Assembly (NCBI RefSeq): GCF_000237325.1
Contig: NC_017542.1
Coordinates: 5,202,501 to 5,266,500, forward strand
Origin: Paenibacillus polymyxa M1
Lineage (GTDB): Bacteria > Bacillota > Bacilli > Paenibacillales > Paenibacillaceae
Length of the DNA: 64,000 nucleotides
Reading direction: 5' to 3'
In this document: positions 4,628 through 25,857 of the stretch, in pieces
Layout: each line of letters opens with the position of its first letter
How positions within the stretch are numbered: the first letter of the stretch is position 1
Translations under genes and position numbers: made by a program
Notes under the pieces: model-generated
Told to the model about the DNA's origin: nothing
The model's input: the letters and a program-made list of their open reading frames with translations, nothing else
The model's database searches: none

Positions 4628-6028
4628 TTAATAAGCGTTTTTGAAGCCGTTACGGATTGTACGAAAAATAATTTTAATATCGAATAAGAGCGACCAGTTC
4701 TCAATATAGAAGATGTCGTGCTTAATCCGTTCCTCAATAGATGTATCTCCACGTAAACCGTTACTCTGTGCCCAACCTGTAATTCCAGGACGAACATGAT
4801 GCTTCACCATGTATTTTGGAATTTCCTCACGGAATTGATCCACATAATAGGGCCGTTCCGGACGTGGACCAACGACACTCATATCACCTAACAGTACGTT
4901 GAAAAACTGTGGCAGCTCATCGAGACTCGTTTTACGAATAAAAGTACCAAAACGTGTGCGTCTTGGGTCATTAGCAGTCGTCCAGCCCGTATCTTCAGTT
5001 CCAGGTGGCAGTACCCTCATCGAACGAAATTTGTACATCCGGAAGGTGCGACGATTCAAGCCTACCCGCTCCTGCTTAAAAATAATGGGGCCTCTCGATG
5101 TGACCTTCACACCAATCGCCACGGCCAGCATAATGGGAGAGGTCAGAATAATGGCGAATAAAGAAAATAAAATATCAAACAGACGCTTAAACAATCGATT
5201 CCCTGCTACATCCAGTGGAATATCTCGTACATTGATCATCGGCATACCTGCAAAGTTGTCAAAGTAAGGTCGTGCCGGCAAATAATCAAAGAAATCGGGA
5301 ATAATAAGCGTGCGTACTCCAGCCTTTTCACACATGTTGATAATCTTGGGATACTTATCATGAGCATCCAGCGGCAGCGCCAGAATGACCTCATCAATCA
5401 TCAGGCGTGACAGCGTTGCCTCCAACTGATCTAATCCTCCAAGAATCGGACGAAAATGAGCTTCTTCCTCTTCGTTCCAATGCCGTTTATCATCTAGAAA
5501 TCCCACTACTTCATAACCTAAATCAGGATATTGTCCAAGATTATGATAAAATCGTTGGCCTAAAGAACCTGCTCCAAGAATGAGCATGAATTGCTTATTG
5601 TATCCTTTTTGACGGAGAATTTTAAGAATTTGCTTCAAAAAATAACGATAAAACAAAATAATCAGCACATTACCAACCATATAGATCGCCAGGTAGGACC
5701 GCGAGATGTCGATTTGCTTTACGAAAAACATTACACTCAACAGCACAAACAGACCAACAATGTGAATCTGGGTAACGCGAAATACATCATCTGCAAACCT
5801 CTTTTTGCGCTTTGGCGAATAGAGTGAGAATAACATCCCCAGCACTACAGCAATCAGACCGTATATTAAGCTCCACCCTCCATATACTTGAATAGGAAGC
5901 GGCTCTTTATAAGTGATCCATTCACTTTCAAATTTGAAAAACCAAGCGATCAGAAAAGATAACTGAATGACCGCGAAATCCGCCACAATATATAATTGGG
6001 TTAAAAAACGCTGATTTCTGCGTATCAT
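4628..6028 (-). CDS. Polyprenyl-phosphate sugar-phosphate transferase (WcaJ/WbaP type), initiates glycan
   Basis: This 466-residue polyisoprenyl-phosphate hexose-1-phosphate transferase transfers a sugar phosphate to the lipid carrier, the first step of EPS or S-layer glycan synthesis. The N-terminus has about five membrane helices (residues 10-140). A nucleotide-binding-like CoA-fold region follows (LILGAGSLGQRFY near 150, VVGFLDD). The C-terminal catalytic domain shows KRLFDILFSL, IFKQERVGLNRRTFRMYKFRSM, KTSLDELPQFFNVLLGDMSVVGPRPERP and VRPGITGWAQ. The architecture matches undecaprenyl-phosphate glucose phosphotransferases and WsaP of Geobacillus. The sugar (Glc or Gal) cannot be read from sequence. 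Its start overlaps the upstream GT2 stop by four bases (ATGA), so the two are coupled. Confidence 0.92.
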   Translation of the reverse strand: MIRRNQRFLTQLYIVADFAVIQLSFLIAWFFKFESEWITYKEPLPIQVYGGWSLIYGLIAVVLGMLFSLYSPKRKKRFADDVFRVTQIHIVGLFVLLSVMFFVKQIDISRSYLAIYMVGNVLIILFYRYFLKQILKILRQKGYNKQFMLILGAGSLGQRFYHNLGQYPDLGYEVVGFLDDKRHWNEEEEAHFRPILGGLDQLEATLSRLMIDEVILALPLDAHDKYPKIINMCEKAGVRTLIIPDFFDYLPARPYFDNFAGMPMINVRDIPLDVAGNRLFKRLFDILFSLFAIILTSPIMLAVAIGVKVTSRGPIIFKQERVGLNRRTFRMYKFRSMRVLPPGTEDTGWTTANDPRRTRFGTFIRKTSLDELPQFFNVLLGDMSVVGPRPERPYYVDQFREEIPKYMVKHHVRPGITGWAQSNGLRGDTSIEERIKHDIFYIENWSLLFDIKIIFRTIRNGFKNAY

Positions 6029-8663: not shown

Positions 8664-9539
8664 CTATTTATTGGAATTTTCCAGATACTCTTTTAAAAAA
8701 TCCCGTAATCCTTCACGCCAATTTCGCAAATCATTCAGCCCATTGGTTCGAATCGCTATATGCTCCATGACCGAATTACGTGGACGTGCTGCAGGCCTAG
8801 GGAATTGTTCTGTACTACATGGGTCCAATTTTGCTGTTATCTTGGCACCTAATAGTCCTGCCGCATCCTGAAAAATAGCTTGCGTAAACTCATACCAAGT
8901 ACAAGCACCGCTATTGGACGCATGATATACGCCATACTTATCAGTTTGAACCAATTCTGCCAAAAAGCGAGCCAAATCCACCGTATAGGTGGGTGCGCCT
9001 TTCTGGTCGTTCACAACCTGAAGATGTGGCTTTTCCTGTCCAAGCTTCAGCATTGTTTTTACAAAATTGTTCCCGTGTAATCCGTATACCCAAGAAGTAC
9101 GAACAATAAAATATCTGGAGGAAAGTGTTTGGGCCAGTATCTCTCCGGACCGCTTGGACTTTCCGTAAATACTCTGCGGATTCGTATTGTCATACTCATG
9201 ATACGGTTGCTCCGCTGTTCCATCGAACACGTAATCCGTGCTGATATACACCAGCTTGGCTCCTGCTTTTTCCGCAGCCAACGCCATATTGCGTGTTCCC
9301 GACGCATTGACTTGGTAAGCCGTGTCTATATCAGACTCGGCTGCATCCACTGCCGTATACGCTGCACAGTGGATGATAGCATCAGGTTGGTACTGTCCCA
9401 CGATCTTTACAACCTGCTCCAAGTCCGTAATATCCAGCTGTTCCCGATCGTATCCAAAGACATCAAGTCCCTGGCCCTGAAAAACGTTTACTACATCTTT
9501 GCCAAGTTGACCGGATGCTCCAGTAACCAGCACCTTCAT
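8664..9539 (-). CDS. rmlD: dTDP-4-dehydrorhamnose reductase
   Basis: RmlD reduces dTDP-4-keto-L-rhamnose to dTDP-L-rhamnose with NAD(P)H, the last step of the pathway. The N-terminal Rossmann motif is GASGQLG, and the SDR active site is YGKSKRSGE near residue 128. DYVFDG and RTSWVYG are family motifs. The open frame runs further upstream into rmlB, but the ATG at 9539 gives the normal start MKVLVTGASGQLG and follows the rmlB stop by one base, with GGGGGA as ribosome binding site. The length is then 291 residues, as expected. It is the last gene of rmlACBD. Confidence 0.95.
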   Translation of the reverse strand: MKVLVTGASGQLGKDVVNVFQGQGLDVFGYDREQLDITDLEQVVKIVGQYQPDAIIHCAAYTAVDAAESDIDTAYQVNASGTRNMALAAEKAGAKLVYISTDYVFDGTAEQPYHEYDNTNPQSIYGKSKRSGEILAQTLSSRYFIVRTSWVYGLHGNNFVKTMLKLGQEKPHLQVVNDQKGAPTYTVDLARFLAELVQTDKYGVYHASNSGACTWYEFTQAIFQDAAGLLGAKITAKLDPCSTEQFPRPAARPRNSVMEHIAIRTNGLNDLRNWREGLRDFLKEYLENSNK

Positions 9540-9540
9540 C

Positions 9541-10560
9541 TTACGCATCCCCCAAGCGGGAACCGTACTGCTTAGCATAATATTGCTGGTACTCGCCGGA
9601 TTGAATACGAGTCCACCATTCTTTGTTGTCCAAGTACCAACGGATTGTTTCTTTAATGCCTGTTTCAAAAGAGTGCTTTGGCTTCCAGCCCAGCTCATTC
9701 ATGGTCTTCGTTGGATCAATGCCATAACGGCGATCATGACCCGGGCGATCCTGTACATACGAAATCAGAGATTCTGGCTTGCCCAGATCCTCCAATACCG
9801 TTTTGACAATATGCACATTTGTCCGCTCATTATTTCCACCGATATTGTATACCTCACCAAGCTTCCCTTGATGAATGACCAGATCAATTGCGCTGCAATG
9901 GTCCTCCACATACAACCAATCGCGGATGTTCAAGCCATCTCCATATACAGGTAGCTGCTGATCACTCAACGCCCGCGAAATCATCAGTGGAATCAGCTTT
10001 TCCGGAAACTGGTACGGACCATAGTTATTGGAACAACGAGTGATATTCACAGGTAGACCAAAGGTTTCATGATATGCACGAACCAGCAGATCCCCACCTG
10101 CCTTAGAAGCAGAGTAAGGACTATTGGGCTGCAGCGGAGTTTCCTCTGTAAACAAGCCCGTTTCACCCAGAGATCCGTACACCTCATCTGTCGATACCTG
10201 TACAAACTTGGTCACATTATATTTCTTGGCTGCGTCCAACAGTACCTGTGTACCAAATACGTTGGTTTTCACAAATACTTCAGGCTCCAAAATACTTCGA
10301 TCCACATGCGACTCTGCCGCAAAATTCACCACCACATCAATTCCCTGCTGCATCAGCTGGTCAATCGCTTGCGCGTCAGTAATATCCGCTTTCATGAAGG
10401 TATGTTTAGGGTGATTTTCAATGGATTTCAAATTTTCCAGATTACCTGCATAGGTAAGCGCATCTATATTCACAATTTCGTATTCTGGATGCTGTTTTAA
10501 CATATACAATACAAAGTTACTGCCAATAAATCCGGCACCGCCGGTGACAAGAAGTTTCAT
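9541..10560 (-). CDS. rmlB: dTDP-glucose 4,6-dehydratase
   Basis: RmlB converts dTDP-glucose to dTDP-4-keto-6-deoxyglucose using bound NAD+. The 339-residue protein shows the extended SDR motif GGAGFIGSNF, the catalytic STDEVYG near residue 125, and YSASKAGGD near 150 with the catalytic Tyr and Lys. RDWLYVEDH and NIGGNNERTN are typical RmlB motifs. The ATG is preceded by TAGGAGG. It lies between rmlC and rmlD. Confidence 0.97.
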   Translation of the reverse strand: MKLLVTGGAGFIGSNFVLYMLKQHPEYEIVNIDALTYAGNLENLKSIENHPKHTFMKADITDAQAIDQLMQQGIDVVVNFAAESHVDRSILEPEVFVKTNVFGTQVLLDAAKKYNVTKFVQVSTDEVYGSLGETGLFTEETPLQPNSPYSASKAGGDLLVRAYHETFGLPVNITRCSNNYGPYQFPEKLIPLMISRALSDQQLPVYGDGLNIRDWLYVEDHCSAIDLVIHQGKLGEVYNIGGNNERTNVHIVKTVLEDLGKPESLISYVQDRPGHDRRYGIDPTKTMNELGWKPKHSFETGIKETIRWYLDNKEWWTRIQSGEYQQYYAKQYGSRLGDA

Positions 10561-10660
10561 AAAGACCTCCTAAAATACATTCCGATATATACATAATATG
10601 CACTTAAATCAAGAAGGAACTATCAACAATGAATAACGCTCTTACTTTGTCGTTCCCTAT

Positions 10661-11209
10661 TTAGTCGAAATTAATCTCCGCATTTGCTAATATAGGTTGC
10701 TTCTGATCCTTCTCCGAAAGAATTGCATGGGAAGTTGGCCAATCAATCCCAAGTGCCGGATCATTCCAGAGTATACCACGATCATCCTCAGGTGAATAAT
10801 ACTCATCTACCTTATAAAACACCTGGGTATTAGGCACAAGCGTACAGAATCCGTGAGCAAAACCTTTAGGGACCAGTAATTGACGTTTATTGTGTTCACT
10901 CAAAATCACCCCAACCCATTGACCGAATGTCGGGGAACTTTTACGAATATCCAGAATCACATCATAGATGGCTCCTGAGATCACACGAATGAGTTTTGTT
11001 TGTGCTTTTGGCTTAAGCTGATAATGCAAGCCACGAATAACTCCAGTCTCCACAGACAATGATTGATTATCCTGAATAAAATCATGACTAATCCCGTTTT
11101 GTTTCATGACTTGTTCATTGTAGCTTTCCATAAAAAAACCACGATGATCACCATGAACCACAGGTTCAATAACTTTTGCACCTTCCAGTTTCAAAGGGAT
11201 TACCTTCAT
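10661..11209 (-). CDS. rmlC: dTDP-4-dehydrorhamnose 3,5-epimerase
   Basis: RmlC is a cupin-fold epimerase acting at C3 and C5 of dTDP-4-keto-6-deoxyglucose. The 182-residue length fits. Seen are HGDHRGFFMESY at residues 19-30, QDNQSLS, GVIRGLHYQ with the catalytic His region near 60, VYDVILDIR-type strands, VPKGFAHGF near 115 and YSPEDDRGI. The start has AAAGGGAGG upstream. The neighbours are rmlA, 21 bp upstream in reading direction, and rmlB, 100 bp downstream. Confidence 0.96.
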   Translation of the reverse strand: MKVIPLKLEGAKVIEPVVHGDHRGFFMESYNEQVMKQNGISHDFIQDNQSLSVETGVIRGLHYQLKPKAQTKLIRVISGAIYDVILDIRKSSPTFGQWVGVILSEHNKRQLLVPKGFAHGFCTLVPNTQVFYKVDEYYSPEDDRGILWNDPALGIDWPTSHAILSEKDQKQPILANAEINFD

Positions 11210-11230
11210 AAGTCTGCATCCTCCCTTTAT

Positions 11231-11974
11231 TTAAAGCTTTAGTTTTCCAAATTCTTCACCAAAGACGATATCCTTGGCTAATTCATTAGCACGTGCAAGA
11301 GATGGGTGAGTTCCCGCATCCGTCCACCATCCTTGGAGAACATCATATGTCAATGTTCCATTAGCAATATATGCATTGTTGACGTCAGTGATCTCAAGTT
11401 CTCCACGAGCTGAAGGTTCAAGTGTTTTAACAATTTCAAACACACTATGATCGAACATATAAATTCCTGTTACAGCATAATTGCTTTTTGGATCTTTAGG
11501 TTTTTCTTCAATAGACACAATTCGTTTCCCCTGAAGCTCAGCCACTCCAAAACGGTGTGGATCTTGTACCTGCTGAAGAAGGATCTTCGCACCCGTGATT
11601 TGATTGCGAAAATTGTCCACAAATGGTGCAATGTCATCTTCAAATACATTATCGCCCAAAATAACAACCATTTGATCATCGCCTACAAATTGTTCTGCCA
11701 GGTCGAGCGCTTGCGCAATCCCACCAGCTTCGTCTTGGACTTTGTAAGTGAATGTTACGCCCATTTCACGACCACTACCAAGAAGGTTAACGACATCTCC
11801 CATATGCTCTTTACCTGTAACGATAAGAATATCGTGTATGCCAGCTTGCTTGAGCTTGGATACGGAATGGAAAATCATTGGATATTTACCCACTGGCAGC
11901 AGATGTTTATTTGTTACTTTGGTTAAGGGGTAGAGGCGAGAACCTGTACCTCCTGCAAGAATTATACCTTTCAT
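11231..11974 (-). CDS. rmlA: Glucose-1-phosphate thymidylyltransferase, short form
   Basis: It makes dTDP-glucose from glucose-1-phosphate and dTTP. The nucleotide-binding signature GGTGSRLYPLTKVTNKHLLP is at residues 8-27, then GDNVFEDD near 105 and the sugar-binding EEKPKDPKSN near 155. At 247 residues it lacks the C-terminal allosteric part of the about 290-residue RmlA form; the short form is common in Bacillales (SpsI/RmlA type). A ribosome binding site TGGAGG precedes the ATG. It is the first rml gene and directly follows the flippase gene, so it may be co-transcribed with the AT-rich part of the locus. Confidence 0.94.
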   Translation of the reverse strand: MKGIILAGGTGSRLYPLTKVTNKHLLPVGKYPMIFHSVSKLKQAGIHDILIVTGKEHMGDVVNLLGSGREMGVTFTYKVQDEAGGIAQALDLAEQFVGDDQMVVILGDNVFEDDIAPFVDNFRNQITGAKILLQQVQDPHRFGVAELQGKRIVSIEEKPKDPKSNYAVTGIYMFDHSVFEIVKTLEPSARGELEITDVNNAYIANGTLTYDVLQGWWTDAGTHPSLARANELAKDIVFGEEFGKLKL

Positions 11975-13456: not shown

Positions 13457-13521
13457 CATTATCCCCTTAGCTCCCAGCAGGTAATAAATTTGCAGTGATA
13501 GATAGTGTAGCACGGAATATA

Positions 13522-14907
13522 TTAATAATATCTACTACTAATAATATCTAACGAGGAAACATTAAATAAAAACATAAGTAGACATAATGAGTAAAACACA
13601 TAGTTCTTCAACTTTTCAGGAAATAGATAACTTATTCCCATAACTATAATAATACTAATAGGTACCAAAGAGGTAAATAGATATCTTCCCTGCAGCATAA
13701 AGTTATGGAACCGCATGAAATATTGAATTTCGACCAAGTACAAAAAAATAAAATTCAATATCACGACAATAAGACACACCGCAATAGTTTTATAATATTT
13801 CTTCCTTTTTATTATTCCGTATATTGAACCCACTACACTAGCTAAAGATATTAAAGCCAAGACTTTATAAATTATTCTAGATGTAAATCTTGTATCTAAC
13901 CAACCAAAGTTTGCCCAAAAAGAGACAACCCATGTATCAAATGAACGGAAAATTGCTTCTTTTATTAAAAATGTATTTACAATATACCAGTGCAATCCTA
14001 CATTTAGATCACCAGGAGGCTGCATTCCTATTCCCCCGGTAAATGAATGATAATGTTTGAAACTAAATATTCCCCATGGTAAATAAATAATGAGAATTGG
14101 AACGAATAAATACACGGCAGATTCTATCCAAAATTGAAGACTAAACTTCTTACTGATAAAATATACTAATATAAGTGATAACGCTATTGCAGTCACAAAT
14201 ACCATTGTAGGCTTAATAATTAGGCCAAACCCCAAAAGCACACCAGTAAAAAGGAGCCTTTTTCTTGTGGGTGAATAAATAATATATATTAGTGAAAGCA
14301 TAATCGCCATGGTGACTGTATTCATTAGAATATCATTATTTACAGCAATACCAACCATAGAGAACATCGGGTGGAAACTAACTAATATAGATATAGTTAT
14401 AGCAATATTCTTTTTTTTATCGAATAATCTACTAGAAATTAAATAAGTGATAGCTGTTGCTAATACTCCTAATAACACTGAAAAAAGACGAACTGCGTAA
14501 TACCTATCAAAAATTGAAGAGAAATAAAAAAACTTATAAAATAATGCAGCAAAAAAATAATAACCAGGAGGATATCCCGCTGCTACTGAACTGCCGTTAG
14601 AATTTCGGTCATAATTTTGTCGATTATCAGATAACTCTTTAAATAAATTTTCATTAATTTTATATTTATTTTCTGTATGATATGCTATATTCCTCATATC
14701 AACAGATTTATAAAACAATTCCATTTCTGAAGAATGTTGAGCCTCATCCCTCAGAATTGGGATTTTATTATTTTCCGCCATAAACTGAACGTATTCAAAA
14801 TGTACAGGCTCATCGGGCGTTTGTAAAGGAGGTACTACAATTGCCCATATAATTCCTTTCACAAAAGACGCAATTAGTATCCAGACAAAAATGCGTTCCT
14901 TTTTCAC
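13522..14907 (-). CDS. GT-C type membrane glycosyltransferase (DUF2142/PMT-like)
   Basis: A 461-residue protein with about eleven predicted membrane helices. The first outer loop carries PPLQTPDEPVH, the acidic motif seen in GT-C enzymes such as ArnT, PMT and DUF2142 proteins. GYPPGYYFF near residue 115 and FHPMFSMVGIAVNND near 180 are further family-like parts. GT-C enzymes take sugars from polyprenyl phosphate on the outer face. The acceptor may be the exported glycan of this locus. The start is GTG at 14907 with AAAGGAG upstream. Base composition is strongly AT-rich, with many AUA and UUA codons, unlike the flanking housekeeping genes. Confidence 0.75.
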   Translation of the reverse strand: MKKERIFVWILIASFVKGIIWAIVVPPLQTPDEPVHFEYVQFMAENNKIPILRDEAQHSSEMELFYKSVDMRNIAYHTENKYKINENLFKELSDNRQNYDRNSNGSSVAAGYPPGYYFFAALFYKFFYFSSIFDRYYAVRLFSVLLGVLATAITYLISSRLFDKKKNIAITISILVSFHPMFSMVGIAVNNDILMNTVTMAIMLSLIYIIYSPTRKRLLFTGVLLGFGLIIKPTMVFVTAIALSLILVYFISKKFSLQFWIESAVYLFVPILIIYLPWGIFSFKHYHSFTGGIGMQPPGDLNVGLHWYIVNTFLIKEAIFRSFDTWVVSFWANFGWLDTRFTSRIIYKVLALISLASVVGSIYGIIKRKKYYKTIAVCLIVVILNFIFLYLVEIQYFMRFHNFMLQGRYLFTSLVPISIIIVMGISYLFPEKLKNYVFYSLCLLMFLFNVSSLDIISSRYY

Positions 14908-15370
14908 TTCTTAATTTCTCCTTTTCAGTTGCGAAACACCTTATTCTAGAATAATTTACATTTAGTGCAATTAATGCATAGATTTATGTGTCTAAGCACC
15001 TTCGCTCATTAATTAATGATGAGAAATTGATACAGTAGTATAGTATGTATTATTTCCATTCACATCCTTTATATAAAAAGTCAGTTTAATAATTCAACTG
15101 CTAGTATAGTTAGCCTACTTCTTATCAAATATTTTATTTTCATAACTTAATGTATTATTGAATTTGAATAATCAGTAACCAATTACTGATTTATCCTTTT
15201 CTATGGTCCGGACACTCAGCTGGTATACACACACTACTAATAAATTAACAGCTAAGTCTTTTCATAACGACTGCTTTCTGTAATCAACAACCAGAAGGGA
15301 CAATAGTATCTTCAAATTTACGTAAACGTATCAGAAGCCGATTTCAAAATGTATAGATAGAGAAAACCAA
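14908..15370. other. AT-rich intergenic region in the glycan locus
   Basis: No credible gene is seen in 463 bp. One clear structure is a 9-bp hairpin (AATCAGTAA at 15170-15178 and TTACTGATT at 15183-15191) with a four-base loop. It could be a weak terminator or attenuator between the epimerase gene and the GT-C gene. A promoter for the 13.5-14.9 kb genes is expected here but no consensus stands out. Confidence 0.5.
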
Positions 15371-16282
15371 CTACTTATTTTTTGTCACTTTAATAATAGA
15401 GGCTATCCCATCTTCAATTGTTGTTGATGGACTATACCCTGTTAGGCCAACCAGTTTATCTGTATTAACCACATTTTTCATAATTGTAGTTTGCCCTTTA
15501 CTTTTATATACAATGTTTATATTCTGATTCGTTCTTTGCTCGACTATTGAAATAACCTGACTTATAGATGTGCCTACTCCACTGCCAATATTTAATATCT
15601 CTTGGTCAGCCAGCCTAATCGCACGGAAAGTCGCTTCCAGAAAATCATCTATAAATATAAAATCGCGAACAGCCTGAATATTACCCCAGAATATAAATTC
15701 TTCCTTATTTAGCGCCTTATTAATTAAGACCGGGATGATTCCTTGCTTCTTATTGGGATTTTGGAATCCTCCATAAGGATTAGTAACCCTCAAAATAAGA
15801 TAAGGCAAATTATTGGTTTCATTGTGCTTAATTTTAATTAAATTTTCAAAAAAGACTTTCTGTAACCCATATATATTGATTGGATTCATAGAATCATCCT
15901 CTTTGGCTCGGGCCAAGGTATTGCCATATACTGTTCCTGCAGAGGATAAAAACACAAATTTTTTCACTTTAACATAGCTACAGAATTCAATAAGTTTCAC
16001 AAAAGAAGTATAATAGGACTCTATGTCTGCTAATACATCTGAAAACATATTTGTTGCGTTAATTGAACCAGCTGCGTATAAAACTATGTCATCTTGCTTA
16101 ATATATTTTTGGAGTTCTTCCATATCGTTTATGTTAGCTCCAACAAATCTTATTCCTTCCAAAAGCAAATGCGAGTACTCTGAGTCTCTGCCTATAATCG
16201 TCACAGACCAAGCTTTTTGGTGAAAATAATTGGCCAAATGTGAACCTAGATATCCACAACCAATAATCACAACATGTTCCAT
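15371..16282 (-). CDS. NAD-dependent epimerase/dehydratase (extended SDR)
   Basis: The 303-residue protein has the Rossmann motif GCGYLGSHLA at residues 8-17, SSAGTVYG near 115 and the catalytic YGLQK near 140 (Tyr-xxx-Lys). RDFIFIDDFLEA and NIGSG near 200-220 are usual in sugar nucleotide epimerases. It probably changes a nucleotide sugar (for example at C4), but substrate cannot be named. It ends just before the start of the intergenic region and follows the GT4 gene with no gap; ATG is preceded by GGAGGG. It belongs to the wzm-wzt unit that begins at 22.19 kb. Confidence 0.85.
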   Translation of the reverse strand: MEHVVIIGCGYLGSHLANYFHQKAWSVTIIGRDSEYSHLLLEGIRFVGANINDMEELQKYIKQDDIVLYAAGSINATNMFSDVLADIESYYTSFVKLIEFCSYVKVKKFVFLSSAGTVYGNTLARAKEDDSMNPINIYGLQKVFFENLIKIKHNETNNLPYLILRVTNPYGGFQNPNKKQGIIPVLINKALNKEEFIFWGNIQAVRDFIFIDDFLEATFRAIRLADQEILNIGSGVGTSISQVISIVEQRTNQNINIVYKSKGQTTIMKNVVNTDKLVGLTGYSPSTTIEDGIASIIKVTKNK

Positions 16283-17515
16283 TTAACCCTCCAATATTTT
16301 AAAGAGATACGTTTGAATTTTTCCCGCTTCTTTTTCCCAGGATGAGTTCTCCAGCAGATCACTTGCATTATCCATTAGAATCTGAACATCTACTTTTTTA
16401 TTCACAACTTGATCGAGGGCCTCCACAATTTCATTCACATCATCTTCCACATAAATGAATATATTCTTCTCGGGATCGATCCAGTCATTATTTCTACCCT
16501 GATTAATTACAACTGGGCATCCAGACGCCATCAATTCCAAAGGTAATAAAGACAAATTTGTAAAAGATAGAATTAATGATACATCGCACTGAGCATACAA
16601 ATGTGATAATTCTTCAATTCTGACTACACCAGCATTAAAATGCTTAAAAGGTATTTCATACTCAGAAACATCCCAACCAGCCATAACAATCTCAACGTCC
16701 GGATTTTTCTTGCAAAATTCGTTCAAAGCTAGAATCCCCAGCTCGAAGCCTCTTCGCTCTGTAGGTGGCCGAGAATAAAAGAATACTCTTCGTATGTCCT
16801 TATCCCGTTTTTCCTGTGGTTTATAAAGATCTTTTTCATATGAAAAACTAAAACTTTCACATACCATACCGTAATCTGACGCCAGCTTTTCTTTAAGCCA
16901 GTCACCTGCTGTTATTCCATAGAAGCCAAATTTATAGGTTTGTTCTGCAAATGAATATGCACTTCCTGGAGCGTAAAAATAAGGTTCAAAATCCTGCACA
17001 AAATATACTTTTTTTACGCAATTATCAAAAGATCTAACATAATAGGCTGTTTGCCAAGAAGTCGCTACAGCAACATCATATTCGATGTTTACTTCAAATT
17101 TATCATCAAGTATATAAACATTTGACTTTAATGGAAAGAAGTAATTCCCAATAACCCTTTTAACACTGGCTGAATCCCCCCATTGAGACCCACCACAAAT
17201 ATATATATCTGATTTAACACCTAATTTCTCTAATAAATATACAATTCTAAAAATATTCAGATGACCGCCTGATCCAATCCCAAAGTCAGGAATAAACCAA
17301 GCTAGGCTCAACTCATTTCCAAGCCTATCACTTAATTTAGCTGCTTTATTCTCCAGTAACAAATAATGATAGAACTTAAAAACATTTTTCTTAGTTACAG
17401 CAATCTCATTTTTCTTTTTTATTTTTGAGATCACGGTTTTGCTGCCTTTTATAACTCCTTGCGACTGAATAATTTTTGCTGCTTTTTTAGCATTATAAAG
17501 AAACACATTATACAT
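16283..17515 (-). CDS. Rhamnosyltransferase-like GT4 (WsaF-like)
   Basis: The 410-residue protein resembles WsaF, the beta-1,2-rhamnosyltransferase of the Geobacillus S-layer glycan: AWFIPDFGIGSGGHLNIFR near residue 75, VYFVQDFEPYFYAPGSAY near 165 (conserved acceptor/dTDP-rhamnose region), FYSRPPTERRGFELG near 245 and the GT-B donor motif LSLLPLELMASGCPVV near 340. WsaF uses dTDP-beta-L-rhamnose, consistent with the rml genes here. An in-frame TTG at 17521 exists, but GAGGG six bases before the ATG at 17515 favours the latter. The N-terminal 60 residues are basic and may contact the membrane. Confidence 0.85.
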   Translation of the reverse strand: MYNVFLYNAKKAAKIIQSQGVIKGSKTVISKIKKKNEIAVTKKNVFKFYHYLLLENKAAKLSDRLGNELSLAWFIPDFGIGSGGHLNIFRIVYLLEKLGVKSDIYICGGSQWGDSASVKRVIGNYFFPLKSNVYILDDKFEVNIEYDVAVATSWQTAYYVRSFDNCVKKVYFVQDFEPYFYAPGSAYSFAEQTYKFGFYGITAGDWLKEKLASDYGMVCESFSFSYEKDLYKPQEKRDKDIRRVFFYSRPPTERRGFELGILALNEFCKKNPDVEIVMAGWDVSEYEIPFKHFNAGVVRIEELSHLYAQCDVSLILSFTNLSLLPLELMASGCPVVINQGRNNDWIDPEKNIFIYVEDDVNEIVEALDQVVNKKVDVQILMDNASDLLENSSWEKEAGKIQTYLFKILEG

Positions 17516-17530
17516 GATCAACCCTCATTA

Positions 17531-18520
17531 TTACTTATTTATTAATTTGTATTCTCTTGAAAACAACCGATTAAGTGACGTATACCTGTTTCCCAAAACT
17601 CCTAAATAGGCGCCTGAGTACCTTACTGTATTTTTAACTAAAGAGTAAGCTGCCCAGTATAGTTTTCTTTTTCGACTTATATTGGTGTTGTGGCGCAGAA
17701 ACCTTACGTCACTTATAAAGTGCTTAGCTATATATGCCGGCAATAAAAAAACACTCTTAACAGAAGCGTAATTATAGATACGGTACAGACCCTTATACTC
17801 ATCATAATAGCGTTTAAACTGCTGCTTAAACGTGTAATTATGAGAATGGTAAACTACTGATTGGGGAGAGTAAGCCTTCTTGTACCCTCTTTCAATTATT
17901 TGCCTTGCCCACAGTTGATCCTCGGCAAAATCAACTTCTGGATAAGGAATTGTATTCCAAATCTCTTTGCGCATTGCAGAGGAATTATCGGAATAATAAC
18001 ATAATAAATGTCTGTATCCTTCTTCCCTGTTGTATCTCTCTTGATCATCCAAATAATATATGGTTGTTTCTGTACCAAAATTGTTGAAATGTGTTATGAT
18101 GTTATGCTTTTCAAAAATATCACAATCATCATAAGGCAAGTGTCTACCAAATACACCTACTATGCTCTCATCTAAATCAAAGCATGAAACCAAGTTTTTC
18201 AGCCAAAACTGATCATAGGGCAAAGCATCTTGAGTAATAAACACAAGGTATTTACCACTGGCCAAAGAGGCCCCCAGATTTCTCGTTTTCCCATGTCCAA
18301 ACTCTTTGGGCATGATTTGCTTTAGAACAATATTTTCATTTTGTTTTTGCAGACCTTGTATAAATTCAACTGTTCCATCAGAAGACCCCGAATCTACAAT
18401 AACAATTTCAAAAGGAGCTCCCAAATCCTGCTTCAGAACTTCCACCAATACTTTTTTGAATATATCTCCTCCGTTTTTTGTGGGAATAATTACAGAGGCT
18501 AAATGGTTCAATTCATTCAT
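17531..18520 (-). CDS. Rhamnosyltransferase-like GT2
   Basis: A 329-residue GT2 with SVIIPTKNGGDIFKKVLVEV near the start, VIVDSGSSDGTVEF, EFGHGKTRNLGASLASG near residue 73 and VFITQDALPYDQFWL near 93. The FGHGKTRN and TQDALP motifs are typical of the rhamnosyltransferase branch found in S-layer and rhamnan loci (for example WsaC/WsaD/WsaE parts). EDQLWARQIIERGYKKAYSP near 200 is the acceptor-side segment. It is ten bases upstream of the GT4 gene in reading direction, so both likely build the rhamnose-containing repeat or its adaptor. Confidence 0.88.
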   Translation of the reverse strand: MNELNHLASVIIPTKNGGDIFKKVLVEVLKQDLGAPFEIVIVDSGSSDGTVEFIQGLQKQNENIVLKQIMPKEFGHGKTRNLGASLASGKYLVFITQDALPYDQFWLKNLVSCFDLDESIVGVFGRHLPYDDCDIFEKHNIITHFNNFGTETTIYYLDDQERYNREEGYRHLLCYYSDNSSAMRKEIWNTIPYPEVDFAEDQLWARQIIERGYKKAYSPQSVVYHSHNYTFKQQFKRYYDEYKGLYRIYNYASVKSVFLLPAYIAKHFISDVRFLRHNTNISRKRKLYWAAYSLVKNTVRYSGAYLGVLGNRYTSLNRLFSREYKLINK

Positions 18521-18538
18521 GGTTATAAATTCCCTTTT

Positions 18539-20104
18539 TTATTTTTTTTTATGTTTTAAATAGTATATAAAACTGCTCATTACATTCTTATACTCATTTT
18601 CGATCAGCAAGAGCCTTCCATTCTCATCTGTTAATACGTTTTTTTGCTCTTGAAGGTTCTCTAGTTTTTCATTCAATTGTTTTATACTACTCTGAGTTAA
18701 TCTAATATTATTTTCCAATTCGCTATTCTTGGACTCGCTTTGGTTTACTCTTTCCCACAGTTTTTGTATCTGCTCCCTTTCTTTAGACAGAAACGCCTCA
18801 GTACTGTTAACGCGCTCCCATAAAGCTTTGTTCTGAGCATGCGTCTCCTTCAACATGTTTTCAGACACATTGACTCTCTTCCATAAAGACGACACTTCCA
18901 GCTCTTTTTTATTAATTATAGCTTGTTCAACCTTATATAGCTGATCCAGTTCTTTAGAATAAGAAGAGGCATTCTTGTTCTCAGAAAGATCAAGTAAGGC
19001 ATTTTTTACGAAGTTAAATATTCTGCCTGAAAGATCCTTAAATTCATGAGTATTGTTCAATCCACTCTTGAAGTAATCAACTATATACTCAGCTTTATCC
19101 AGCATATAGACAGGTTTTCTCAGACAGTAATTACTTTTTTGGATGAGTTCAAAAAAGCCTGTTAACTTCGTGGAATACTCGCCGGAAAAAGTCACATGTG
19201 GGATGTCGTAACTGTATGAAATGATATTTCCGTGAAGACTCGATCCAATAAAACCTTTTGCATTTGCTAAAATAGCCACTTTGTCCATCAAAGTTAAAGA
19301 AGGTATATTTTCCTTATTAATTATACAGGTATCAACAAGTAGAGGTGCAAGCTGATCATATAATTCATTGTCCCCAAGACATTCACCAATTGAAATGAGT
19401 ACGATAGGAACGCCAAGATTCTTAGAAATGTTATTGAGCAAAACAGCTACGTCTTTAACCTCTTCCTTGGAGATAACATTTTCGTTAGCCTGGAATACAA
19501 TGTACTCCCCTTTTTTTAATACATGTTGGCTATCAGTTGCTAGCGAGTCCAAAGTGGCTTCAAGAGAGGACTTAGGGAAATATTCAGAAATACACAATAC
19601 CAAATCAGGTACAATTTCACTTCTTATGCCAACATCTGATAGAAATTTGCTTGATCTCTGATCTCTTACTGACACGACTTTAAATCTGGCAAATGAATTT
19701 CTTACATATCTTGAGAACCCCTCATCTAATTGAAAGGGGACACCCAAACCAATTGTGTAACAATTCTCAATACTAGCATCAGTAGGAGAAATAATATTAC
19801 TGAAGCTAAGTCTACTCTCTTCATAAAGACTATTAATAGACCAGTCATCTGACCTTAACAAATCGCCTCCACCAATAAAAACCTTATCGAAAGAGTAATT
19901 ATCAAATTGTATAATATCCTCCACTTGCTTTTGATCTGTGTAGGTCGGTGTGTATTGCATACAATTGGGGCTAAAAAACCTGATTTCATATGCCTCGCTT
20001 GAATGACTATAAATATCATCCACAATTTTTTCAAAAACTATAGGAAAAAGCAGATCACCTAAATTATCAACATTAAATGTACCGACCTGAGCAATTCTCT
20101 TCAT
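18539..20104 (-). CDS. Polysaccharide pyruvyl transferase with C-terminal coiled coil
   Basis: Residues about 1-375 match the polysaccharide pyruvyl transferase family (PF04230): GTFNVDNLGDLLFP at the start, FIGGGDLLRSDDW near 95, and GFIGSSLHGNIISYSYDIP near 290. These enzymes move pyruvate from PEP to a sugar of a glycan. The C-terminus (about 385-510) is a long coiled coil. It has three copies of L-W-(K/E)-R-V-N-x-(S/T)-E starting at about 407, 428 and 449, exactly 21 residues (three heptads) apart, and two more heptad blocks follow in the same register. The end is basic (YYLKHKKK). An enzyme plus coiled coil beside Wzt/Wzm recalls WbdD of E. coli O9a, which caps and measures the chain. 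Confidence 0.82.
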   Translation of the reverse strand: MKRIAQVGTFNVDNLGDLLFPIVFEKIVDDIYSHSSEAYEIRFFSPNCMQYTPTYTDQKQVEDIIQFDNYSFDKVFIGGGDLLRSDDWSINSLYEESRLSFSNIISPTDASIENCYTIGLGVPFQLDEGFSRYVRNSFARFKVVSVRDQRSSKFLSDVGIRSEIVPDLVLCISEYFPKSSLEATLDSLATDSQHVLKKGEYIVFQANENVISKEEVKDVAVLLNNISKNLGVPIVLISIGECLGDNELYDQLAPLLVDTCIINKENIPSLTLMDKVAILANAKGFIGSSLHGNIISYSYDIPHVTFSGEYSTKLTGFFELIQKSNYCLRKPVYMLDKAEYIVDYFKSGLNNTHEFKDLSGRIFNFVKNALLDLSENKNASSYSKELDQLYKVEQAIINKKELEVSSLWKRVNVSENMLKETHAQNKALWERVNSTEAFLSKEREQIQKLWERVNQSESKNSELENNIRLTQSSIKQLNEKLENLQEQKNVLTDENGRLLLIENEYKNVMSSFIYYLKHKKK

Positions 20105-20106
20105 AA

Positions 20107-21378
20107 TTAACCACCTTTAATGATTTCAACTGTAGAATCCATGTCCATCAAACCTATTACAGTCCTTTCCGACTTAACGGTTATCTTGTTAACATCATAT
20201 CTTCTATCCAGTGGGCGGCTTATTCCTTCTACATAATCAGATAATCCTACGGAAACTATATACTCATCTGGGGCAAGATACATTTTTTGCGAAAAAGTCA
20301 CAACAATTTCTTCTCCACTTTTTACAGGTCCTATATTTTGATCAAGATAATGAGTATTGCCACTATACATTTCTAGTCCCTTCTTATTCTTGATATAGAA
20401 TCCAAGAACAGGGTTCTCACAATCCTGTAAAAATTTCACGGTAACCCTCAATTTAAAAGAATCCAACGTATAAACAAGCCACTGACTCTCTGAATCATTC
20501 TCATTTATACACTCGATCTCTTTTATCACAGCGGTTTCATCACCATATCGGTATTCTTCCGAAGAAGTCTCACTGATAATGTCCACCAATGAGGATTCCT
20601 TCTTGACCATTTTATTGACTCTTTCTATCTTTTTGGTGATCTCATCGTTAGTATTGTACAGTTTCACGTAATCGTTAATGATCCTTCTAGGCTCACCTTG
20701 CGAAAAAACTTCTCCCTTATTCAACAAAACACATCGGTCACATAATGTACTTATGCTGGTAACATCATGACTAACAAATAAAATAGTTACTCCGTTATTC
20801 TTCATGGTCTTTATTTTCTCAAAACATTTTTGCTGAAAAAATATATCTCCGACTGATAATGCTTCGTCAATTATAAGAATTTCGGGTTCTACATTTATGG
20901 CTACAGCAAATGCCAATCTTGCGAACATCCCACTCGAATAATTTTTTACAGGCTGGTATACAAAATCTCCAATATCCGCAAAGGAAAGGATGTTTTCTAT
21001 TTTCTTATCCATATCCGCTTGGTCAAATCCCATAAGCATGCCGTTAAGATATATATTCTCAATCCCCGTATACTCGGGATTAAAACCTGCCCCCAATTCC
21101 AGCAGAGCAGCAATCTTACCGCTAATTTTCACTGTACCGCGGGTCGGGGTTAGGATGCCTGTAATTATTTTAAGTAAAGTCGATTTCCCAGAACCATTTT
21201 TCCCAAGGATCCCTAAAGACTCACCTTTATTAACATGAAAGCTCACATCATTTAATGCGTAAAAGTCCGTATGATATTTTTTACGCAATGGGTTAATTGC
21301 TTCTTTAAGTCTATCCGTTTGATGTTCATATAATTTATATTGTTTTGAAATATTCTCTACCTGTATAGCTATACTCAT
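20107..21378 (-). CDS. wzt: Polysaccharide ABC exporter ATPase with carbohydrate-binding C-terminus
   Basis: The 423-residue protein has an ABC domain in residues 1-240: Walker A GKNGSGKSTL near 60, the signature YSSGMFARLAFA near 145, and Walker B ILIIDEALSVGD near 167. The C-terminal 170 residues (from about 255) form a beta-rich region of the Wzt C-terminal type, which in O9a binds the capped non-reducing end of the glycan. The sequence DSTVEIIKGG closes the protein. Having this domain implies that a finished, capped chain is recognised before export. A start at TTG 21384 is possible, but ATG 21378 has better spacing to AAGGAG. Confidence 0.92.
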   Translation of the reverse strand: MSIAIQVENISKQYKLYEHQTDRLKEAINPLRKKYHTDFYALNDVSFHVNKGESLGILGKNGSGKSTLLKIITGILTPTRGTVKISGKIAALLELGAGFNPEYTGIENIYLNGMLMGFDQADMDKKIENILSFADIGDFVYQPVKNYSSGMFARLAFAVAINVEPEILIIDEALSVGDIFFQQKCFEKIKTMKNNGVTILFVSHDVTSISTLCDRCVLLNKGEVFSQGEPRRIINDYVKLYNTNDEITKKIERVNKMVKKESSLVDIISETSSEEYRYGDETAVIKEIECINENDSESQWLVYTLDSFKLRVTVKFLQDCENPVLGFYIKNKKGLEMYSGNTHYLDQNIGPVKSGEEIVVTFSQKMYLAPDEYIVSVGLSDYVEGISRPLDRRYDVNKITVKSERTVIGLMDMDSTVEIIKGG

Positions 21379-21392
21379 ATTCAAATATCTCC

Positions 21393-22190
21393 TTATAACA
21401 CATCTGCAAAGTGAGGTCTTAATCTCTTAAATATAAAAGCGCCAATAAACAGAAAACATAAAGTCACAAACCAAAAATACAAACTCATCCTTGGATATTC
21501 CCAAAACCAGCTTCTAAAAATCAAGCTATTCCTATAACCTTCTATAATGTAGTACATAGGATTCAACTTTATAAGGAATTCATATTTTCCAGGTATCATT
21601 TTTAGAGACCATAAAATAGGAGTTATCCAGTATCCGAATTGTAATAACATCGATAATATTTGCCCTACATCCTTTAGAAAAATAACCAGTGCAGAAGTGA
21701 TCCAAGAAATACCAAGTAAGAAAACGGACATAGCAAAAAGATAATAAAAGATTTGTAAAAAATATATATTTGGTGGATAGCCATATCCCCAAAACATCAA
21801 TACCATCATAACCAAAAAAATCAAATGAATAATTAATGGGGATATTATTTTTACAATAGGTAACAAACTAACTCTAAATACTACATTCTTCACAAGAAAG
21901 ACATTGCTCACTATTGAGTTTGTAGCATTCATAATGGCGTCCGAGAAAAAAAACCACGGGATGATCCCCGCTACAAGCCATAGAATAAACGGATAATTAT
22001 CAACAGGCATAGATTTGAAACCTACTTGAAATATAAACCAGAAGATCAGTATAGAGATTGTTGGCTGGATTACTGCCCAAAGAAAGCCTAAATACGATCC
22101 CAGATATTTGTCTTTTAGATCCTTCACAGATAACTGTAAAATCAATCTCCTATTTAAATAAATATCCTTAAAAAAAGATAACCCTAACAT
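21393..22190 (-). CDS. wzm: Polysaccharide ABC exporter permease
   Basis: A 265-residue ABC-2 type permease with six membrane helices. KDLKDKYLGSYLGFLWAVIQP near the N-terminus is the conserved amphipathic segment of Wzm/TagG proteins, and FGYWITPILW and LNPMYYIIEGYR near residue 200 are typical. With Wzt it moves the lipid-linked glycan across the membrane. It is the first gene of the long minus-strand unit. A TTGACA is present about 70 bp upstream and a GGAGAAG precedes the ATG. Confidence 0.93.
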   Translation of the reverse strand: MLGLSFFKDIYLNRRLILQLSVKDLKDKYLGSYLGFLWAVIQPTISILIFWFIFQVGFKSMPVDNYPFILWLVAGIIPWFFFSDAIMNATNSIVSNVFLVKNVVFRVSLLPIVKIISPLIIHLIFLVMMVLMFWGYGYPPNIYFLQIFYYLFAMSVFLLGISWITSALVIFLKDVGQILSMLLQFGYWITPILWSLKMIPGKYEFLIKLNPMYYIIEGYRNSLIFRSWFWEYPRMSLYFWFVTLCFLFIGAFIFKRLRPHFADVL

Positions 22191-22282
22191 TAAACTTACT
22201 TCTCCTTCCGCACGCTCAACTGTTGAAACGGTAATGTCAATTTCTAATGCAACTGTCAGTGAATCTACATTCCGCCTAGCTC

Positions 22283-22319
22283 GTAGATAATCAATGTGCT
22301 AAAATATTGACGTATCTAC
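22283..22319. promoter_or_regulatory. Interrupted dyad in the divergent promoter region
   Basis: Outer arms GTAGATA (22283-22289) and TATCTAC (22313-22319) enclose inner arms TCAAT (22291-22295) and ATTGA (22306-22310). It lies 22-58 bp upstream of the plus-strand ligase gene and about 95 bp from wzm, between two oppositely directed units of the glycan locus. It overlaps a TAAAAT sequence, so it may be an operator. No known consensus is matched. Confidence 0.4.
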
Positions 22320-22340
22320 AAGAAAAGGAGATTGTAAACC

Positions 22341-24797
22341 TTGTCGAATCCAGTATACGGGAAACAGGCCAAAACGTCGACCCGTGACGATAAAAGGCCG
22401 GCTATATTTTGGGTGTTAATTGTTGGCATGATTTTGTTCTTAGCTTGGGCCCCCTTCCAGGCTGCACTTTTTAATGGTCAAATGCTCGACTTTGAGAAGC
22501 CTCTGTATTGGGCTTTGATCATCAGCACGATTCTATTAATTTTAGGAATCGTAACCTATTATAAAAAATTCAAGCTAGAAGAGCAAAGGGATTGGCTAGC
22601 TGTACTAGTATTACTGCTTCCCCTAACCTATGTGCTTTCGCTGACTTCAGCAGCTTCGCATTACCTGGCCATGAATATGGTGGTGGTACAATGCATATAT
22701 GCTGCCCTGTTTATCATTTCAATCTATCTACTCCAGGGTCGTTTAGGCAATAAGATTATTCACAACCTGATTATGACTGTTGCTTATATCATCGTAGGTT
22801 TTGGCTTCATTAACTGGTTCGGACAGTGGGCGCTTGCCGGCAAGATGGTAGGCTGGTTTAGCCAATATGTGTATCAGTATCGCTATACCAATGCAGTTAT
22901 GACAGATACAAATGGTCTCCGGCTGACATCGGTGTTCCAATATGCGAATACATATGCGGCCTTTCTAATGGCTTTCCTATTTGCCGCCGTTTTCTGTCTG
23001 ATGAAATCAAAACTATGGTACGGCAAGGCTATTCACGGCTTCATGTTGGTCCCTATTCTGGTCTCGCTATTTCTGACTTTGTCACGGGGCGGTCTGGTTA
23101 TGCTGCCTGTCGTGTTCGTGCTGCTCTTGCTTTTCCTTAAACCTGCACGCCAAATTATATGGATTTTACATTGCGCCATTGCTGGCGTAGCATCAATATC
23201 TATCTTGGCCCCGATTACAAATATGGGATTACAACTCAATAAGACCTACAACGGTGGAGAGGCGGCCAAAGGATGGGGATTACTTATTGGAGTTTCCCTG
23301 GCTGTAGCTGTCGTACTGTGGCTTGTTGAACGTTATCTGGCACCAAAGCTGGAGAATGCTCTCAAAGGGTGGAGTTCACGAAAGTTATCCAACCTGTGGT
23401 TGCCTGTCGGATCAGTTGTGGTGATTGGCTTGCTGGCTTTTCTGTTTATTGGAACTGGCTTGCGCAGCGTACTCCCGGAGAACGTACAGGTTCGGTTGGA
23501 AAATATCAATTTCCGCCAGCATAGTGTACTGGAACGACTTGTATTCTATCAGGATGCTGCCAAATCGATTAAAGATCACCCTATTATTGGGAGCGGTGGT
23601 GGCGGATGGGCTACCTTGTACGAAAGGTACCAGGATTATCCTTATAGCAGCCGCCAGGCCCATAACTTTTTCATGCAGTACCTGGTTGAAGTAGGCATCT
23701 TCGGTTTTGTAATTTTAATGTCATTCATCATATATATTTTTTACAAATATATTCGCAGCTATATTAGACAAAATGATGAAGAACGGGATTCTCACTTCCT
23801 ATATCTCATTTTGGCACTCTCGATCTTACTTCATAGCTTGCTGGACTTTAATCTGAGTTACGTGTTTATGGGCGTACTGGTATTTATGAGTCTTGGTGGT
23901 ATGGCCGCTGCTATGGACAGTAAACCGCTTAAACGCCTGTCCATGAGTGCTTCTGCATTTCGAATCATGTATAGTGCAGCCATCGGCATTCTAAGCATTG
24001 TGTTGCTTTTTGCAGGTCTCCGCTTCGTGCAATCGGCCAATGCTGCTACATATGCCAAACAGATTATGGCGGTAAGCACATCATTCGAGGAAATTCAAAG
24101 TGCGATTAATAAGGATCTTGAACTTCGTCCTACACGTCCCGATTCGGTTATAAGATTGGCTGCACTATACAAGAATGTGTATGATCAAACGAAAAAAGAG
24201 GAATTTTATAACGCTGCAATAGAGGTACTAAATACGGGCCTTAAGGCAGAACCGTATAATAAAATCATGTTAAACTCCAAAGTTAACCTTTTACGAGCAA
24301 AAGGTGAGAATGAGCAAGCCTTCAGTATTTTGGAAAATAACACTTCCAACTTTAACTGGGACAATGAATGGTACAATATGTTGATTACCCAAGCTTATAC
24401 TATTGGTAATACGGCACGTGAGCAAAAAGACACCGCCAAAGAACAGAAGTATTTCCAAGCAGGTCTTGCTGCTTATCAGCAGGTTTTGGATAGGGTAGCC
24501 CATATTAAGACGCTTCCACCTGAAATTGAGTTGCCACGTACTTTTGAAGTAACTCCAGGTATTGCACTCAGTACTGGCAAAATTGAGTTCATGTCAGGTA
24601 AGCTTGCTGAGGCTGCAAGCATCCTCAAAAACGGCCTGAAGGACGACTTGAGCGATGCTACAAATCGTGAGGTTGCTCGCTATTATGTTGCCGCCCTTCA
24701 AAAACAGGGCCAAAATGACGAAGCTTTATATAAGAAACTGATTAAGGCTGATCCGAAGGAAAAAGAGCAAATTGCTCAGTTGAAATCGGAGAAATAG
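22341..24797 (+). CDS. O-antigen ligase/oligosaccharyltransferase-like membrane protein with TPR tail
   Basis: The 818-residue protein has about 12 membrane helices up to residue 575, then a soluble helical tail. LTLSRGGLVMLPVV near 235 and the large loop with HPIIGSGGGGWATLYERYQDYPYSSRQAHNFFMQYLVEVG near 415-450 are the PF04932 (WaaL/Wzy/PglL) signature, with the conserved His. The tail (about 590-810) has TPR-like repeats such as NAAIEVLNTGLKAEPYNKIMLNSK. Similar ligase-plus-TPR proteins (WsaB/WsfB) move glycans to S-layer protein in Geobacillus and Paenibacillus alvei; a polymerase role is the alternative. The start is TTG with AAGGAG upstream. It is transcribed away from wzm. Confidence 0.8.
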   Translation: MSNPVYGKQAKTSTRDDKRPAIFWVLIVGMILFLAWAPFQAALFNGQMLDFEKPLYWALIISTILLILGIVTYYKKFKLEEQRDWLAVLVLLLPLTYVLSLTSAASHYLAMNMVVVQCIYAALFIISIYLLQGRLGNKIIHNLIMTVAYIIVGFGFINWFGQWALAGKMVGWFSQYVYQYRYTNAVMTDTNGLRLTSVFQYANTYAAFLMAFLFAAVFCLMKSKLWYGKAIHGFMLVPILVSLFLTLSRGGLVMLPVVFVLLLLFLKPARQIIWILHCAIAGVASISILAPITNMGLQLNKTYNGGEAAKGWGLLIGVSLAVAVVLWLVERYLAPKLENALKGWSSRKLSNLWLPVGSVVVIGLLAFLFIGTGLRSVLPENVQVRLENINFRQHSVLERLVFYQDAAKSIKDHPIIGSGGGGWATLYERYQDYPYSSRQAHNFFMQYLVEVGIFGFVILMSFIIYIFYKYIRSYIRQNDEERDSHFLYLILALSILLHSLLDFNLSYVFMGVLVFMSLGGMAAAMDSKPLKRLSMSASAFRIMYSAAIGILSIVLLFAGLRFVQSANAATYAKQIMAVSTSFEEIQSAINKDLELRPTRPDSVIRLAALYKNVYDQTKKEEFYNAAIEVLNTGLKAEPYNKIMLNSKVNLLRAKGENEQAFSILENNTSNFNWDNEWYNMLITQAYTIGNTAREQKDTAKEQKYFQAGLAAYQQVLDRVAHIKTLPPEIELPRTFEVTPGIALSTGKIEFMSGKLAEAASILKNGLKDDLSDATNREVARYYVAALQKQGQNDEALYKKLIKADPKEKEQIAQLKSEK

Positions 24798-24806
24798 TTA
24801 ATAAAA

Positions 24807-24845
24807 AGAGACTATCAGATGACGTTATATCATCCGGTAGTCTCT
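24807..24845. terminator. Bidirectional terminator between the ligase gene and galU
   Basis: Arms 24807-24822 and 24830-24845 pair over sixteen positions with one mismatch and one GU pair (AGAGACTA/TAGTCTCT outside). TTCTT follows on the plus side and TTTTT on the minus side. It serves the convergent genes at 22341 and 24886. Confidence 0.8.
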
Positions 24846-24885
24846 TTCTTATATTAAGGAAGCATAGTTGGGTTTAGCGAGATGT

Positions 24886-25767: not shown

Positions 25768-25857
25768 AGGTTAAACTCCTTTGTCTTCAATAATAACGGT
25801 TAGGTATACTGTCTATGATTATAACAGGTAGATGGATAAATTTAATAGGTTAAAGAA

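Follow-up and report, generated by a model that had tools for sequence, protein, structure and literature searches.

A putative pyruvyltransferase with a repetitive coiled coil beside Wzt in Paenibacillus polymyxa: a candidate terminator and ruler of a surface glycan

How is the length of Gram-positive surface glycans set when they are exported by ABC transporters? In Geobacillus, an additional length factor is possibly required besides WsaE, according to a 2010 review (PMC2943079). The protein family described here bears on this question. We met it in a window of 64,000 nucleotides of Paenibacillus polymyxa M1 (contig NC_017542.1, positions 5,202,501 to 5,266,500), the whole stretch of DNA that was analysed. 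One gene of the window, which we call pyvT-coil (18539..20104, minus strand), encodes a putative polysaccharide pyruvyltransferase of 521 amino acids with a C-terminal coiled coil, as judged from the open reading frame list, Pfam and AlphaFold2. Can such a protein both end a chain and measure it?

The glycan cluster and the pyvT-coil protein

On the minus strand, wzm (21393..22190), encoding the membrane subunit of an ABC transporter, is followed by wzt (20107..21384), encoding its ATPase with a C-terminal carbohydrate-binding module (CBM), and then by pyvT-coil. The earlier note had placed this gene just after wzt, and wzt does lie directly upstream in the direction of transcription. Next on the same strand come a GT2 glycosyltransferase (17531..18520), a WsaF-like glycosyltransferase (16283..17521; WsaF_C 73.6 and WsaF_N 32.7 bits, cut-offs 27) and an NAD-dependent sugar epimerase (15371..16282). 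The assignments of wzm, wzt and the GT2 gene rest on Pfam, together with the open reading frame list for wzt and a comparison of loci for the GT2 gene. After the epimerase are found genes for a DUF2142 membrane protein, a GT2 enzyme, a DUF2304 protein and an EamA-like protein, then rmlACBD for dTDP-rhamnose supply (8664..11974, minus strand), two more GT2 genes and an initiating sugar-phosphate transferase (4628..6028, minus strand; Bac_transf, of the WbaP/WsaP type by reading). The names rmlA, rmlC, rmlB and rmlD were given from sequence and gene order, without a family scan, and the Aneurinibacillus locus described below (L108) has a homologous block. A Wzy_C-type ligase identified by Pfam (22341..24797, plus strand), divergent from wzm and adjoining it, is a candidate transferase of the finished glycan. 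The G+C content is 31-37% over 12000-21999, 40-47% over 3000-11999 and 40-55% over 22000-29999. In slg clusters, wzm-wzt lies upstream of the glycosyltransferase genes, the rml genes lie downstream and the centre is low in G+C (PMC2943079); the window cluster has this layout, both in gene order and in its low G+C centre. Judging by the rml genes and the WsaF-like enzyme, the exported polymer probably contains rhamnose.

The genes at 12002-14907 (GT2, DUF2304, the EamA-like small membrane protein and the DUF2142, PMT_2-like protein) look like a set for the addition of a side sugar outside the membrane. Relatives of this GT2 (69-70%) occur in three loci with a methyltransferase-type terminator (L057, L058 and L062), and relatives of the DUF2142 protein (48%) in L057 and L062.

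A pyruvyl transferase domain fused to a C-terminal coil had been described in the earlier note, and the fusion is borne out: PF04230 covers residues 14-307 (94.2 bits, cut-off 25.3) within a catalytic domain of about residues 1-335 (19100..20104, minus strand), and a helix is predicted at residues 384-520. The pyruvyltransferase motifs NxGD, RxxxS/T and His, as defined in the WbbZ paper (PMC10629545), are all present (N14xG16D17, R147xxxS151 and H291), in columns that are invariant or nearly so. In an alignment of the window protein with 37 of its 62 homologues (A1, 38 rows), R147 and H291 are invariant, as is K313, which is aligned in Pvg1p too. Pvg1p R337 has a modelled contact to the PEP phosphate and lies outside the three motifs listed in PMC10629545; its position is occupied by Ser289 in the window protein and by Ser in 38 of 38 rows. 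Because the expected Arg is absent here, the pyruvate chemistry is uncertain, and this is the main doubt on pyruvate as the cap. At this site, both of the genome's remaining PF04230 proteins carry Arg-Leu-His.

The serine would fit an enzyme of GT-B-like type that ends the chain with a different group, such as a sugar, and the best structural matches listed point the same way, as they are 2-epimerases and GT-B glycosyltransferases; the structures of Pvg1p and WbbZ (6X1L) are absent among the best 50 listed. With the single window protein as query, phmmer returned no PDB match at E up to 1, and a profile matched Pvg1p (5ax7) at E 0.0095 over 66 positions, amid chance matches to coiled coils. 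However, NxGD, RxxxS/T and His are kept, the lysine aligned in Pvg1p is invariant and the Pfam score is far above its cut-off, which makes a cap other than pyruvate rather improbable. The enzyme might also act as CsaB does, another PF04230 pyruvyltransferase of Gram-positive cell walls, and pyruvylate a secondary cell wall polymer that serves as ligand for SLH domains. The secondary cell wall polymer of P. alvei ends in a pyruvylated ManNAc. It is bound by the SLH domains of that species (PMC6081394). This role appears very improbable for the window protein, which scores 47.8 bits with the CsaB model (TIGR03609, cut-off 213.1), far below the equivalog level, and which carries a long helix as a further difference from CsaB; moreover, a separate PF04230 protein of the genome has a higher Pfam score (137.8 bits) and the RLH motif.

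We then turned to the C-terminal part. The earlier note had anticipated a rod in this region, and it is present in the AlphaFold2 model as a single unbroken helix of 137 residues (384-520; 18545..18955, minus strand), in a one-chain prediction that is silent on oligomerisation. The model, built on a 38-row alignment, has a mean pLDDT of 90 over the whole protein, which drops to 65 and then 50 across the final two blocks. A COILS-type scan gave p >0.5 across 72 residues from residue 439 and about 0.2-0.3 over approximately residues 374-436, the site of the first two motifs, with a matrix that penalises Trp. A straight helix rises 1.5 A per residue, and 137 residues would accordingly span about 20 nm.

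Three 21-residue LWxRVN repeats occupy residues 407-469 (18698..18886, minus strand), as delimited by motif and period analysis. The three copies that the earlier note had seen exactly 21 residues apart are indeed so spaced: LWKRVN begins at residue 407, and LWERVN at residues 428 and 449. At lag 21, 21 positions of residues 396-512 are identical, a value equalled by a fraction of 0.00005 of 20,000 plain shuffles and by 0.008 of 20,000 shuffles that preserve the heptads. The same note had counted two further 21-residue blocks; past residue 469 the length allows for them but the LWxRVN motif is missing, and they are therefore blocks by length only. No 63-bp array was found in the DNA of the window gene. 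The sequence R-V-N-x-(S/A/T)-E of the repeats resembles a trimer motif, but its fifth position is mostly small or polar, and for this reason we claim no trimer. Finally, the composition of approximately residues 505-521 (18542..18592, minus strand) indicates a basic aromatic tail, a candidate membrane contact; the last 25 residues have a net charge of +4 and 4 aromatics. Among 18 stand-alone coil proteins (the window protein and 17 of the same genus, near-copies counted), 12 have such a tail, versus 39 of 383 control open reading frames.

Repeats and rods in homologues and in the genus

A search in which 7998 candidates were scored gave 62 homologues at E 0.001 or better, 13 of them of the LWxRVN type. 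The nearest one, with 97% identity, carries the label Paenibacillus jamilae. In these 13 and the window protein the motif is present in 2-5 copies, and all 35 gaps between successive motifs measure 21 residues. The consensus from 41 repeats is L-W-x-R-V-N-x-(S/A/T)-E with heptad spacing; it was drawn from 12 of the 14 proteins, leaving out P0001, nearly identical to the window protein, and P0011, which is incomplete. The gene of the Aneurinibacillus homologue contains a DNA array of 63 bp in 2.7 copies with a 97% match, and whole 21-residue units have thus been duplicated in recent times in that protein. In Pseudomonas-type relatives (six of the homologues, designated P proteins, and two Pseudomonas loci), the period is 25 residues. 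The catalytic domains of P0014-P0026 are 36-40% identical to that of the window protein in alignment A1, with 10-22% identity in the alignable coil, and P0015 has no alignable coil there; a single unbroken C-terminal helix of 89 residues is likewise predicted for a Pseudomonas homologue. The coil thus varies in sequence and length while the helix stays, so that the rod is kept, as would be expected of a spacer.

We considered that the LWxRVN coil might have been swapped onto other enzymes, an idea that found no support. Coil-only protein searches returned two PF04230 relatives from 157 candidates and the query itself from 452, no LWxRVN coil on another enzyme appearing in either; these searches were word-limited and missed most of the LWxRVN relatives present among the 62 homologues. 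In 75 genomes of the genus, the coil-only search found nothing outside the genome of origin.

What does the genus place downstream of wzt? Wzt_C gave 34 matches in 33 of the 75 genomes, and 34 same-genus loci were compared (33 fetched and the window). In 33 of the 34, wzt is followed on the same strand, at a distance of up to 4 kb downstream, by a protein with a coil run of 40 residues or more, the exception being L063, where the contig ends soon after wzt. The coil protein is encoded by the next gene in 16 loci and by a later one in 17. Among 350 other open reading frames of at least 200 aa in the same loci and the window, three have such a run, namely UvrB, an M23 peptidase with a PcsB coil and a MotB-like protein. 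This slot agrees with PMC11231755, in which the presence of an extended coiled-coil protein is said to mark this strategy of assembly characteristically. The enzyme domains in the slot vary (methyltransferase, kinase-like, GT2, Capsule_synth and glycosyltransferase fusions), and PF04230 was found in none of the 23 same-genus coil proteins scanned with Pfam, out of 32 in the fetched loci; the other 9 were labelled by likeness, and the protein scanned for L063 is unrelated. The label kinase-like relies on an APH match in L045, 0.1 bit under the cut-off, and otherwise on inspection by eye.

When 30 slot coil proteins were examined for periodicity, 21 was the top lag in six, five of them with z of at least 4.6; the remaining proteins gave 7, 14, 25 and 28 among other lags, or nothing clear. 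In L044-L047, which are near-copies, and in L050, the 21-residue period occurs in coil proteins whose enzyme domains are unrelated (lag-21 z 4.6 to 10.2), and the addition of three-heptad units may be one of the usual routes by which such rods lengthen. Two other observations concern these loci. In L037, L039 and L044, a methyltransferase gene directly follows wzt and precedes a gene for a kinase-like coiled-coil protein, an arrangement that looks like WbdD split in two. Furthermore, 32 of the 33 fetched loci have a homologue of the Wzy_C-type ligase (51-94% identity) while the genes in their centre vary, which would suit a single ligase that serves many kinds of glycan.

The shared cassette and the CBM of Wzt

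The pyvT gene itself is rare. It was detected in one of 75 genomes of the genus and in two of 394 of the family, its own genome counted in both, and the second family match covers residues 3-330 only. The earlier note had proposed to look for the same fusion beside Wzt/Wzm elsewhere in the genus, where no relative was found in the other 74 genomes; the arrangement does recur outside the genus. A class-level search of 398 genomes found one besides its own, an Aneurinibacillus genome (G481; homologue P0013 is labelled Aneurinibacillus uraniidurans), whose locus L108 has wzm, wzt, pyvT, GT2, WsaF and epimerase in the window order, with identities of 62, 62, 41, 67, 56 and 46%, respectively. A first scan of genome contigs gave no relatives; a profile scan of named contigs then gave 33 loci, six of which have a Wzt with CBM directly upstream of pyvT: L074 and L075 (Pseudomonas), L073 (an Azoarcus MAG) and L091, L097 and L099 (Clostridia). 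The two Pseudomonas loci keep the entire window order, with identities of 27-31% for wzm, 48% for wzt, 35% for pyvT, 42-43% for GT2, 45-46% for WsaF and 28% for the epimerase. L073 has wzm, wzt, pyvT and also a WsaF relative in common with the window, and no counterpart of the GT2 or the epimerase was found there. In L091, L097 and L099, a single protein of approximately 1,300 aa directly after wzt combines PF04230, a coil of 32-81 residues, GT2 and GT1/GT4, L099 having been judged by likeness.

The carbohydrate-binding domain that the earlier note had reported at the C-terminus of Wzt was recovered with 113.4 bits for Wzt_C (cut-off 30.4). It spans residues 277-415 (20140..20556, minus strand) and, from Pfam and the pattern of similarity, is a candidate for reading the capped end. 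Over its ATPase half (residues 1-245), Wzt reaches 63% identity with same-genus systems and has 53-55% with three Gram-negative pyruvyl systems, whereas the CBM (266-425) is 41-43% identical to the latter and at most 26.1% to 32 same-genus systems. By BLAST, the CBM is 62% identical to that of L108 and 44-45% to those of the three Gram-negative systems, the next value being 29%. In a sliding comparison along Wzt, the sign changes near residues 180-240.

By identity, Wzt therefore looks mosaic; the tree tests are mixed, and they concern groups that were defined with the identities already known, with cap classes that are our own labels. With 40 rows, the ATPase tree rejected the four pyruvyl rows as a group of their own (AU p 0.027), but the 34-row tree, from which six long or odd rows had been removed, did not (p 0.187). 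The CBM trees bring the four pyruvyl rows together with modest support (82/77 and 79/80). Placing the window in one group with the four, or the eight, same-genus rows nearest to it was rejected in the 34-row CBM tree (AU p 0.0026 and 0.018) and allowed in the 34-row ATPase tree (p 0.47 and 0.11), and this contrast makes recombination inside wzt likely, though not proven. A further test, of the window with all 32 same-genus CBMs (p 3.8e-6), was withdrawn because the group includes rows, such as L042, that fall in other places for reasons of their own, so that the value says nothing on the window by itself. L067, where Wzt_C falls on a short open frame (9902-10267, 121 aa), was kept outside the Wzt comparisons; wzt may be broken or split there.

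What, then, does this CBM follow? The CBM regions of four Clostridia-type pyruvyl systems are only 11-17% identical to that of the window, and L077 has no Wzt_C match. The CBM consequently follows the pyvT subfamily or its polymer rather than pyruvylation in general. Its similarity goes with pyvT, yet with GT2 and WsaF as well; since these two accompany the CBM in the loci from Pseudomonas and Aneurinibacillus, what it tracks may be the polymer as a whole rather than the cap.

Chain termination and length control

Taken together, these features lead us to favour a role of pyvT-coil as both chain terminator and ruler, with the CBM of Wzt reading the capped product. The protein would terminate a surface glycan that is exported by the ABC transporter and probably contains rhamnose. 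Its tail at the C-terminus would be located at the membrane, the site of the glycosyltransferases that polymerise the chain, and the coiled coil would hold the pyruvyltransferase domain at a distance. Only chains long enough to reach the enzyme would then receive pyruvate at their non-reducing end, and this cap would stop growth. The CBM of Wzt would recognise the capped end, Wzm/Wzt would export the chain and the neighbouring Wzy_C-type ligase would then probably transfer it.

The mechanistic basis for this proposal is the WbdD-type model (PMC3482155, PMC11231755). In WbdD of E. coli O9a, WbbB of K. pneumoniae O12, and ORF7 and ORF6 of O4 and O7, the catalytic domain is distal on a long coil, as predicted here, and the WbdD-type clusters combine glycan genes with those of an ABC transporter whose Wzt bears a CBM, as in the window. 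The caps differ, being methyl, methylphosphate or Kdo in the systems described in PMC11231755, where the window protein has a PF04230 domain, and WbdD556 is described as a trimer (PMC3482155) while for the window protein the helix prediction is of a single chain. The WbdD-like interpretation put forward in the earlier note is partly supported: it agrees with the anatomy, with the gene order across phyla, with the CBM pattern and with the coil slot of the genus, and it is in doubt for the pyruvate chemistry, owing to Ser289.

Both elements of the proposal are already known separately: some glycans exported by ABC transporters end in pyruvate, and coiled coils that act as rulers have been described. 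WbbZ (K. pneumoniae O1) and WbmX (O2c) have the pyruvyltransferase motifs found in the window protein, and pyruvate is at the chain end in the case of WbbZ and probably in that of WbmX (PMC10629545, PMC11231755). Nevertheless, these same sources describe WbbZ as capping O1 chains without governing their length or export. It could be argued, therefore, that the PF04230 domain of pyvT-coil likewise pyruvylates repeat units or some ends without any control of length, the coil only oligomerising or anchoring the enzyme. We think this unlikely: the O1 system is described in PMC10629545 without coupling between cap and export, whereas the window system combines a coiled coil with a CBM on Wzt, and this CBM resembles those of other pyruvyl systems. 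Weighing for such a limited role, on the other hand, is the general behaviour of long coils. They often act as scaffolds.

Pyruvate termination together with length regulation has been proposed, and not validated, for two systems in PMC10629545; both are Gram-negative and are likened to the present one from their description, and relatives in two other Pseudomonas have a 25-residue repeat instead of 21. The slg cluster of Geobacillus stearothermophilus is Gram-positive and has wzm-wzt, rml genes, WsaF and a terminating enzyme, like the window. WsaE differs, since its cap is a 2-O-methyl group added by a methyltransferase fused to glycosyltransferases (PMC2943079). The S-layer glycan SLCT-11 of C. 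difficile is also Gram-positive and ABC-exported, and its end carries a cap that presumably stops synthesis; the cap is cyclophosphoryl-rhamnose, and the text of PMC6254364 makes no mention of a coiled coil. A Gram-positive pyruvyl terminator with a coil was not found in the open-access papers searched, a scope outside which the census of Mann et al. 2019 falls. The coiled-coil terminator principle is established in Gram-negative bacteria with other caps, and it would recur here as a swappable cassette in a Gram-positive.

More tentatively, and with less conviction than for the terminator role itself, one could imagine an evolvable, quantal ruler: 63-bp repeats gained or lost would retune the glycan length in steps of 21 residues, that is three heptads or about 3 nm of rod, and the writer of the cap would cross phyla together with its CBM reader by recombination inside wzt. 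Natural variation of the rod comes in exact steps of 21 residues, with a related enzyme throughout, which makes the ruler idea testable by swaps of repeat number. A CBM that accompanies the enzyme from one phylum to another provides a natural experiment on the way in which writers and readers of the cap stay matched.
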